Made by a program: the position numbers and the translations under genes. 38,097 bases of DNA, taken from positions 1-38,097 of the forward strand of contig CADBNI010000060.1 of the NCBI GenBank assembly GCA_902795965.1, given 5' to 3'. Origin of the DNA: an uncultured bacterium (GTDB lineage Bacteria > Cyanobacteriota > Vampirovibrionia > Gastranaerophilales > Gastranaerophilaceae). This document shows positions 33,813-36,581 of this stretch, piece after piece (positions within the stretch are counted from its first letter, which is position 1; each line of letters begins with the position of its first letter). Under the pieces are notes generated by a model. That model had not been told where the DNA came from. It saw only the letters and a list, made by a program, of their open reading frames with translations, and searched no databases.

Positions 33813-34505
33813 TTAGCTACTTATCTTTCTCCATTTTTCATAAAGGTCGGGGCGTTTTAATTTTGTTCGTTCCAAACTTTTTTGCAAGCGAAATTCGTTT
33901 ATTTCCTTGTGATTTCCGTTGAGCAAAACCTCCGGAACTGCCAGTCCTCTGTATTCACGCGGTTTGGTATAATGCGGATATTCCAAAAGTCCGTTTGAAA
34001 AACTGTCCTCATCAGCGGATTCGATTTTGCCCAAAGTTCCCTCAATTTTTCGGCTCACCGCATCAATAAGACAAAGTGCGGGCAACTCTCCGCCCGTCAA
34101 AACAAAATCGCCCAAAGAAATCTCTCTCGGTTTTATAATATCTCTTATTCGCTCGTCAAAACCTTCGTAATGACCACACATCAAAATTACCTGCTCAAAT
34201 TTTGCAAGCTCGTTTACAATATTGTCATTCAAAGGTTCTCCTTGCGGTGAAAGCATTATGGTTACCGAACTTTCAACCTTTTGTACCGCCTCATAAGCAT
34301 CAACATAAGGTTGTGCCATCAAAACCATTCCCGCCCCACCGCCATAAGGAGTATCATCAACCTTTCTGTGCTTGTCGAGCGTATAATCCCTCGGATTTAT
34401 CGTATTAACCGAAAAAATTTCGTTATCAAGCGCGCGTTTCATTATACTGTGACTGCAATAATCCTCAATCATTTCTGGGAAAAGTGTCATTACGTCAAAC
34501 TTCAT
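33813..34505 (-). CDS. trmD: tRNA (guanine-N1)-methyltransferase
   Basis: 230 residues. SPOUT-class enzyme with the trefoil-knot SAM site: PYGGGAGMVLMAQP, LSPQGEPLND, MCGHYEGFDERI, ISLGDFVLTGGELPAL and EYPHYTKPREYRGLAVPEVLLNGNH split over the C-terminal half. It methylates G37 next to the anticodon, preventing frameshifting. Its ATG overlaps the rimM stop by four bases (ATGA). rplS, which often follows trmD, does not follow here. Confidence 0.97.
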   Translation of the reverse strand: MKFDVMTLFPEMIEDYCSHSIMKRALDNEIFSVNTINPRDYTLDKHRKVDDTPYGGGAGMVLMAQPYVDAYEAVQKVESSVTIMLSPQGEPLNDNIVNELAKFEQVILMCGHYEGFDERIRDIIKPREISLGDFVLTGGELPALCLIDAVSRKIEGTLGKIESADEDSFSNGLLEYPHYTKPREYRGLAVPEVLLNGNHKEINEFRLQKSLERTKLKRPDLYEKWRKISS

Positions 34506-35014
34506 TCCAGCAATCCCTCAATATTATTTATTATAATTTTGCGTTCTTTTATGAAAACATCAGTCACAATCGCCTTTACAAAGGGAATTAGCACGATTTT
34601 TTTTGAATTTGTTTTTACGGAAAGCAAATCACTCGCACCATTATTTGAAACACCGATAACAAATCCCTGTTTTTTGCCGTTTTCATCAAAAATTTCCAAC
34701 CCGACAAGTTCGTCAATCAAAAATTCATCTTCATCAAGAGCCTCTCTAATCGTGTTTTCCTCAATATAAAGAAACGCACCCTTCAAATCCATTAGTTCAT
34801 TTATGGAATTTATTCCCTCAAATTTAACAAGCGCAACATTTTTATTCAATCGGGATTTTTCAATTTTTAAAGGTTTGTAATCGTTTTCACTCTTGACATA
34901 GACGCAGTCAAGCGAGAGGAAAAATTCCTCTTGATTTTTGGTAAATCCGACTTTTGCTTCGCCTTTAATTCCGTGAAAATTTAAAATCTTACCGACAGAA
35001 ATATATTTTGTCAT
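34502..35014 (-). CDS. rimM: 16S rRNA processing protein RimM
   Basis: 170 residues. N-terminal RimM beta-barrel (VGKILNFHGIKGEAKVGFT, 7-25) and C-terminal PRC-barrel (about 98-168, with LIDELVGLEIFDENG and VLIPFVKAIVTDVFIKE). It assists maturation of the 30S head near ribosomal protein S19. It lies between the Asn/Arg-rich zinc-ribbon gene (2-nt gap) and trmD (4-bp overlap) in one operon. No strong Shine-Dalgarno is seen, so coupling to the upstream gene is likely. Confidence 0.95.
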   Translation of the reverse strand: MTKYISVGKILNFHGIKGEAKVGFTKNQEEFFLSLDCVYVKSENDYKPLKIEKSRLNKNVALVKFEGINSINELMDLKGAFLYIEENTIREALDEDEFLIDELVGLEIFDENGKKQGFVIGVSNNGASDLLSVKTNSKKIVLIPFVKAIVTDVFIKERKIIINNIEGLLE

Positions 35015-35016
35015 AA

Positions 35017-35985
35017 CTATTCTTCGTCAGTTTTCTTTTTTCTGCCTTTTTTGGGAGCTTCTTCAACCTGTTTTTCAGCTTGTTGTTTTTTAAATTCTTC
35101 AGGCAAATCGGGTCTGTCCTCGTTCCAACGTCCGAGTCCCATTTGCGAACGAATTAAGCCGATACCTACGTGAACTCTCCATTCGTCCATTTTAAGCTGA
35201 GCCGCAATGATTTTGTGACAACCAATCGGAGGCAACGGCAGCAAAGGTTCATACAAATTCTTTATTGCAAACAACTGATCGGGAGAAATAGCCAATTTGC
35301 GTTTCGGGAACGGCAATTTCGGAAGCATCATTTTTTGTCTTACAAGATTTATACCAAAGAAAACTTTTCTCGGTTCCAAACCGATTTTTTCACCGATAAC
35401 TTCATGACAATCGGGGTTTGGCAAAGGAAGCATCTGCTTATATAACAATTCAATTTGTTCTAATTGCTCCTTGCTTACCAAAAGCTGTTTTGGACCTTTT
35501 CTCATTTGCGGACGTCTGTTATTTCTGTTAAATCCGCCCTGCTGAGGTCTTTGGCGGTTGTTATTAAATCTGTTGTTATACCCGCCTCTGTTGTATCCGT
35601 TATTGTATCCGCCGCCCTGCTGAGGTCTGTTGTAACCTCCCTGTTGGCGATTGTTGTTGTATCTGTTATTGGGTCTGTTATAACCGCCCTGACGGTTGTT
35701 GTTGTACCTGTTGTTGTAATTATTTTGTCTGTAACCTTGTTGAGGTCTGTTATATCTCGGTTGTTCAGCATCACCGCCCGCACTGTAATAGCGAGGTGCT
35801 TCTTCCGTACCGCCTGCACTGTAACCGTTAAGCGGTTCTTGAGGCATTTCGGTTTTTTGTTCGCTATCGGAAGATGCAGATACCATCATGCTTTTGTCGG
35901 GATACAAACAGTCGGGACAAATAACTCTTTTGGGGTTTTTTGTTTCAAATTCACGACCACATTTGATACACTTGTTTACATACAT
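35017..35985 (-). CDS. Zinc-ribbon protein with Asn/Gly/Arg-rich disordered region and duplicated C-terminal domain
   Basis: 322 residues in four parts. Residues 1-30: a zinc ribbon, C6-x2-C9 and C23-x2-C26. Residues about 75-160: low-complexity N/R/G/Q/Y sequence of short repeats such as GGYNRP, NNNRQ and RYNNN, resembling RGG-type RNA-binding and phase-separating tails. Residues 168-223 and 231-286: two copies of a roughly 56-residue module with the shared pattern QL-x2-I-x2-LY-x4-LPLP-x3-CH-x-I-I (first copy V-I) and then V-x3-I-x-L-x-R. Residues about 295-322: Lys-rich tail. No enzyme motif. AGAGG precedes ATG 35985. First gene of the rimM-trmD operon, so a ribosome or RNA role is inferred. 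I know no named family. Confidence 0.85.
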   Translation of the reverse strand: MYVNKCIKCGREFETKNPKRVICPDCLYPDKSMMVSASSDSEQKTEMPQEPLNGYSAGGTEEAPRYYSAGGDAEQPRYNRPQQGYRQNNYNNRYNNNRQGGYNRPNNRYNNNRQQGGYNRPQQGGGYNNGYNRGGYNNRFNNNRQRPQQGGFNRNNRRPQMRKGPKQLLVSKEQLEQIELLYKQMLPLPNPDCHEVIGEKIGLEPRKVFFGINLVRQKMMLPKLPFPKRKLAISPDQLFAIKNLYEPLLPLPPIGCHKIIAAQLKMDEWRVHVGIGLIRSQMGLGRWNEDRPDLPEEFKKQQAEKQVEEAPKKGRKKKTDEE

Positions 35986-36097
35986 AATTTCAAAGCCTCT
36001 TAATTTGAAAGTTGGGTTAAAAAATTTTCTCCTCGAAAATACTCAATATTGATATTCTTATTATAACATGCTTTTGAAAATTTTGCAAGTCATGCCG

Positions 36098-36535
36098 TTA
36101 TTTTTCTAACCAAAATGTTACAGGTCCGTCATTAATCAGCTCAACGTCCATATTTGCGCGGAATTTTCCCGTTTGAATGTTAAGATTTGATAATTTCAGA
36201 CGGTCGACAAAATATTCATACAAATTTTCCGCCTTGTCTAACGATGCCGAATTATCAAACGAAGGGCGAGTACCTTTTTTGCAATCTCCGCAAAGCGTAA
36301 ACTGTGATACCGCGAGGATTTCACCTTTTACATCAGATACGGAGAGATTCATTTTTTCGTTTTCGTCCTCAAAAATTCTCAATTTTATAATTTTATCTGC
36401 CAATTTTTCGGCATTAATTTTTTCATCATCTTTTTCAACCCCGACAAAAACCAAAATTCCATGCCCGATTTGCGAATAAATATTTCCGCCAATCGTAACA
36501 GAAGCTCTTTTAACTCTTTGGATTAACGCTTTCAT
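36098..36535 (-). CDS. dtd: D-aminoacyl-tRNA deacylase
   Basis: 145 residues, the standard DTD length. MKALIQRVKRASVTIGG opening, the active-site SQFTLCGDCKKGTRPSF stretch (77-93) and the C-terminal NDGPVTFWLE (Gly-cisPro type motif) are all present. It hydrolyses D-amino acids and glycine mischarged on tRNA. Divergent from the CoA-dehydratase activator gene. Confidence 0.97.
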   Translation of the reverse strand: MKALIQRVKRASVTIGGNIYSQIGHGILVFVGVEKDDEKINAEKLADKIIKLRIFEDENEKMNLSVSDVKGEILAVSQFTLCGDCKKGTRPSFDNSASLDKAENLYEYFVDRLKLSNLNIQTGKFRANMDVELINDGPVTFWLEK

Positions 36536-36581
36536 ATGATTTTCTCCTCTAAAAATATAATATCAAAAAATGTTATTTTTG

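Follow-up and report, generated by a model that had tools for sequence, protein, structure and literature searches.

The window, that is, the whole stretch of DNA analysed here (38,097 nt), comes from an uncultured, gut-associated lineage in the non-photosynthetic branch of the cyanobacterial phylum; the assembly is 1.81 Mb in 85 contigs. It carries an ORF of 322 codons with an ATG start (35017-35985, minus strand), which is followed after a gap of 2 nt by rimM and then trmD, just as a sequence-only reading had described. The features of the locus are listed below.

33813-34505, minus strand: trmD, overlapped by rimM; TrmD confirmed by Pfam
34502-35014, minus strand: rimM, directly downstream, a family-specific linkage; RimM confirmed by Pfam
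35017-35985, minus strand: whole gene, encoding a zinc ribbon, a disordered region, a predicted tandem HTH and a charged tail (322 aa)
35020-35121, minus strand: C-terminal tail, charged and variable, with a basic patch of the KKGRKKK type
35122-35298, minus strand: module 2, residues 230-288, second predicted HTH copy, 39% identical to module 1
35299-35484, minus strand: module 1, residues 168-229, predicted three-helix homeodomain-like HTH (AlphaFold, alignment)
35491-35757, minus strand: N/R/G/Q/Y low-complexity core, residues 77-165, pLDDT mostly below 50
35758-35886, minus strand: S/E/P-rich linker, residues 34-76, net charge -6
35890-35985, minus strand: C4 zinc ribbon, residues 1-32, with an invariant FETKNPKR core (alignment, AlphaFold)
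35994-36005, minus strand: conserved AATTAAGAGGCT element of the ribosome-binding site, unique in the genome and found in 88/89 family leaders
36029-36034, minus strand: purine element GAGGAG, further upstream in the 5' leader
36060-36088, minus strand: promoter-like TTGCAA-17-TATAAT, the second hexamer preceded by TG; most family leaders show a similar sequence
36098-36535, minus strand: dtd, upstream on the same strand; confirmed by Pfam

The dN/dS of the tandem module, computable in 13 of 19 comparisons of the window sequence with family members, is 0.016 to 0.050, and it was concluded from this that the ORF is a real gene under very strong purifying selection. The window protein gave nothing above cut-off in Pfam, NCBIfam or PHROGs (the last searched with the tandem module only), and Pfam recognised no catalytic domain in it. 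The protein is a new, uncurated family without annotation. A search of open-licence PMC articles found no papers on a Melainabacteria homeodomain or zinc ribbon or on Gastranaerophilales RNA-binding proteins.

An ortholog search, as the sequence-only reading had proposed, found the gene to be near-universal in its family and order. With the whole protein as query, 145/146 family genomes match (126/126 of those of high quality). With the C-terminal 133 residues, matches were found in 140/146 genomes of the order (high-quality, 136/136), in 69/146 of the class and in 85/194 of the phylum, all 85 from its own family. A profile of 40 diverse sequences matched 209 of 289 class genomes, and the protein is also present in three other families of the class; the families labelled f8 and f10-f13 have no genome among these 209. 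In 194 genomes of a photosynthetic cyanobacterial class the same profile found nothing convincing: 13 genomes had hits with E no higher than 1, the best 0.009 over 43 positions, and these were rejected as chance. A zinc-ribbon profile matched 0/11 genomes in the order of f12, in a search run without a positive control. No homologue was found in phages. The gene is single-copy per genome as a rule; in one family member a further, incomplete copy is present (G012:C29:66029-66562), matching residues 1-195 of the query at 57% identity. Three records that bear the titles Brachyspira, Fusobacterium CAG:439 and Heliobacteriaceae (L045, L057, L105) carry the gene at 93 to 96% identity, and because of this close identity the three assemblies are probably mislabelled Gastranaerophilales. 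Ribosomal protein L2 (rplB) was not found in the window's own assembly by a search that was positive in 13 of 14 control genomes; this is probably an assembly gap.

The N-terminal zinc ribbon noticed in the first reading was borne out. The motif CxxC-x13-CxxC spans residues 6-26; its four cysteines and FETKNPKR are kept in 23 diverse sequences, in which 16 of the 32 ribbon positions are invariant. AlphaFold models the ribbon with confidence (pLDDT about 91), with strands at residues 2-5 and 12-15. The two CxxC knuckles on a beta-hairpin fold are those of a C4 zinc ribbon, and zinc binding is predicted. L033, L156, L163, L165 and L167, which are cut by a contig end or have a later start, were excluded from the zinc-ribbon and leader counts.

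The sequence-only reading had staked its proposal on conservation of the duplicated C-terminal module, and the duplication is real and extremely conserved. Modules 1 and 2 are identical at 21 of 54 positions and align with a score of 105, as compared with 22.8 ± 4.6 in 2000 shuffles. Across the class the tandem modules share 58 to 93% identity, and 41 of 142 columns are invariant in alignment A1, which holds 40 diverse sequences from all groups (93% identity cut, 42 sequences reduced to 40 by removing the long local matches L029 and L073). As to the fold, which had been left between HTH-like and new, AlphaFold predicts a tandem of three-helix, HTH-like modules: in a 140-residue piece they occupy residues 7-53 and 70-116 with a mean pLDDT of 84, and the HTHs are the same in the full-length model. 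Weak matches to Pfam Homeodomain (PF00046) were found in 34 of the 40 alignment members (best E 3.8e-5). The gathering cut-off of 22.9 bits was not reached by the window member (18.5 bits); eight other members gave seven scores of 14.2 to 21.8 bits and one no match, and the member with E 3.8e-5 could reach the cut-off. The recognition-helix signature of homeodomains, W48, F49, N51 and R53, falls on G46, I47, L49 and R51 of A1. Because only the arginine of W-F-N-R is in place, we call the predicted modules homeodomain-like HTHs, not homeodomains. The top Foldseek rows are the tandem homeodomains of DUX4, with the POU domain of Oct-1 also near the top, all at weak E values (best 0.05, or 0.016 with the full-length model). 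VIA-align gave Z of at most 5.7 to assorted HTH proteins, which may mean only a common arrangement, and a PDB search by sequence returned one chance-level row, a plant homeobox protein (E 0.38).

Between the ribbon and the modules lies the N/R/G/Q/Y low-complexity region of the earlier reading, with a core of 89 aa (85 had been given) and a net charge of +18. Residues 41-160 contain 27 N, 18 G, 17 R, 15 Q and 13 Y among 120, and pLDDT in the full-length AlphaFold model is below 50 across most of residues 35-156; by composition and low pLDDT this is a prion-like, N/Q/G/Y/R-rich disordered region. The RGG label once given to it is loose, there being a single RGG triplet in the window protein. 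The short repeats reported earlier exist as short protein motifs, but at the DNA level only one two-copy 45-nt repeat was detected. A nucleic-acid-binding, disordered, condensate-type architecture, as had been proposed, is consistent with these predictions.

Within the 5' leader, the gene's ribosome-binding site contains a conserved cis element. In the family, the 3' end of AAGAGGC lies 7 to 10 nt from the ATG, and GAGGA is found in 85/89 leaders, in most cases 53 to 82 nt ahead of the start codon. The element is gene-specific: AATTAAGAGGCT occurs in 69/70 leaders; among neighbouring genes the most frequent 12-mer over the same span reaches at most 15/70 (rimM; dtd 5/59, the gene at 36536 5/25, trmD 3/12). 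The shorter AAGNGG is present in 78/78 family leaders vs 17 of the 502 background ORFs from these loci, which were taken from their first ATG, wrong starts included. The leader totals of 89, 78 and 70 differ because duplicates were removed at different lengths. Outside the family, GGGGC was counted at the same place in 12/14 f2-f7 leaders and AAGCGG in 4/8 f9 leaders; the element is absent in one f14 and three f15 leaders.

Many autoregulated mRNAs carry a folded RNA target. For the family we rejected such a target because its leaders are less structured than shuffled sequences (mean z +1.0, 30 of 89 leaders). The f2-f7 leaders show no excess of structure over shuffles (mean z -0.2, 15 leaders), and RNAalifold found no structure in them. 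Six of these 15 (L149, L151, L155, L157, L186 and L190, from f2-f4) show, by pattern match, a CAAGG/CCTTG pairing around a purine-rich loop, which is not significant by folding energy and occurs in too few leaders to be claimed. Given a start-site element specific to the gene and a product predicted to bind nucleic acid, autoregulation is the best explanation; judged from the leaders, the gene may thus control its own production. The element could possibly also be a DNA operator, or an unusual Shine-Dalgarno sequence selected for expression level.

Proteins with an RRM (RRM_1, PF00076) are distributed in a way that suggests their replacement by the present protein. They occur in 84 of 146 class genomes: in 0/52 of this family and in 84/94 of the others. 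Among these 94, an RRM protein is present in 11/17 carriers of the present protein vs 73/77 non-carriers (Fisher p 0.002, kinship ignored). The combined counts were read from the listed rows and assume the same 146 genomes in both searches. The absence of RRM proteins from the family is, however, confounded by common descent, and 11 of the 17 carriers outside the family have both proteins. Pfam found no RRM in the window protein and none in its genome. Ten RRM loci were inspected: four encode complete proteins, three of these with a glycine/arginine-rich tail, and at the other six only the C-terminal part was seen, ending GGGGGGRGRY. In excerpts of PMC9333190, cyanobacterial RRM-type Rbps are described as acting in cold and salt tolerance.

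The sequence-only reading had also let the protein take an RNA-binding place in the rimM operon, with rpsP missing. This did not stand. The rpsP gene is present in the same genome on another contig, and of 112 non-redundant loci, rimM lies directly 3' of the gene in 92/92 from the family and in 0/18 testable ones from other families, where the neighbours varied. The operon position is therefore conserved inside the family but not outside it, and a function based on the operon was rejected for the other families. A strict script count gave 87/92; the 5 added family loci have trmD 501 to 504 nt downstream and a longest-start rimM call that overlapped the gene. Outside the family there are 20 loci, two of them with less than 500 nt downstream. 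The search with a single rimM sequence could miss a divergent rimM, and the downstream ORFs were inspected by eye. The rimM-trmD linkage is a family trait and thus cannot support an argument about function. In one f3 genome a second small ORF with CxxC-type zinc-binding residues adjoins the gene (L155:1932-2240, plus strand).

We tentatively favour, at somewhat less than even confidence, a clade-specific, single-copy nucleic-acid-binding hub of Vampirovibrionia that acts on the RNA side, regulates itself and fills the niche of the RRM proteins. The twin HTH modules would bind specific short nucleic-acid sites, and the positively charged R/Y region would add weak multivalent contacts to RNA and to itself, giving RNP clusters or condensates. 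The protein would bind the AAGNGG-type element beside its own start codon and repress its own translation, excess protein covering the Shine-Dalgarno region. Within the family it would also take on the general RNA-binding tasks that are handled by RRM/glycine-rich proteins in relatives. As the leader heads the rimM-trmD message in the family, ribosome and tRNA maturation would be coupled to the protein level. Two findings lean to RNA and translation: the gene-specific element at the ribosome-binding site, and the absence of RRM proteins from the family. Against an RNA-side hub, HTH modules usually bind double-stranded DNA, the best structural matches are DNA-binding tandem homeodomains (all at weak E), and in the distant families f9, f14 and f15 the element has no clear conservation. 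Quite possible too, though not our first choice, is a DNA-binding global regulator or nucleoid protein whose HTHs sit on double-stranded DNA, whose ribbon contacts RNA polymerase or DNA, whose low-complexity region clusters the protein on the chromosome, and for which the element is an operator downstream of the promoter. The three-helix HTH prediction with its weak Homeodomain matches points this way, as do the best structural rows (DNA complexes of DUX4, Oct-1 and engrailed), a weak similarity of the zinc ribbon to RNA polymerase subunit P (E 0.0051), and a basic KRGRK-type tail in 85/91 family members. The core of that tail is, however, found in 0/9 order members outside the family, and neither W48 nor N51 has its homeodomain residue. 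The element lies exactly at the ribosome-binding site, close to the ATG, and the exact 12-mer occurs once in the genome, so that no regulon is visible (copies with mismatches were sought in the window).

Near-universality and extreme conservation would also fit a structural or maturation factor of the ribosome or RNA polymerase that is constrained by docking and acts with RimM and TrmD. In some genomes the neighbours are translation or transcription genes, such as rimM-trmD or genes named by eye from their N-terminal residues as rplT/infC-like (L151), secE/nusG-like (L165) and gatB-like (L160). The neighbours differ between families, so that the rimM linkage is not conserved, and the lack of matches in f8, f10-f13 and photosynthetic cyanobacteria likewise argues against a machine-bound factor, which we consider unlikely. 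Still less probable is that the low-complexity region is a mere flexible linker following genome base content, with no condensate or RNA role. Its N, G and P contents do track the GC of the loci (r -0.56, 0.63 and 0.62), N falling from 18% to 2% and G and P rising in GC-richer families. Arginine (9 to 13%), Y+F (9 to 11%) and the scarcity of K, D and E are nevertheless maintained in the three groups compared, as is a length of about 100 to 230 aa across families. Among 1448 ORFs of at least 100 aa in the loci, 110 have such a low-complexity segment, and all 110 are from this protein family. Judged by composition, the region looks like constant stickers with exchangeable spacers.

Several known systems resemble parts of the protein. 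Nucleic-acid-binding proteins of the low-complexity, condensate type are familiar from eukaryotes and have been described in fewer bacteria. The FET proteins FUS, EWS and TAF15 combine a zinc-binding module with an R/G/Y-rich disordered region, as the present protein does; unlike them, it has no RRM, a different domain order, a CxxC-CxxC ribbon and an HTH pair. DUX4 (HD1-HD2) and Oct-1 POU resemble it in having two three-helix HTH modules in tandem, which in the present protein are predicted. These proteins are eukaryotic, whereas the present protein lacks W48 and N51 and is below the Pfam cut-off in the members listed, and the whole-chain superposition is poor. RRM proteins are found in most class relatives without the present protein; the cyanobacterial Rbps are not known to have a zinc ribbon, and the binding domain of Rbp1 and Rbp3 is an RRM in place of a tandem HTH. 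As excerpts of PMC9333190 describe them, Rbp1 and Rbp3 are likewise small bacterial nucleic-acid-binding proteins, some with a glycine-rich region. The RNase E BR-bodies of alpha-proteobacteria, according to excerpts of PMC10412687 and PMC12510024, are bacterial RNP condensates in which a disordered region likewise acts as organiser; RNase E has enzyme activity, whereas the present protein has no recognised catalytic domain.

Almost all genomes of this uncultured, gut-associated lineage encode a strongly constrained, condensate-type architecture without annotation, and the ribosome-binding-site element permits a direct test in laboratory E. coli. If the protein binds DNA, it would be a chromosome or transcription factor restricted to the clade and an instance of tandem homeodomain-like modules outside eukaryotes. 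If it binds RNA, one RNA-binding architecture would stand in for another, the RRM, within a class. The boldest form of the RNA reading, which we regard as doubtful, is a FUS-like bacterial RNP-granule hub that uses the HTH pair as an RNA reader, has displaced the RRM proteins in this Gastranaerophilales family and is controlled by itself through AAGNGG at its own start site. Were it true, an entire family of bacteria would rely on a single condensate-type RNA-binding protein.
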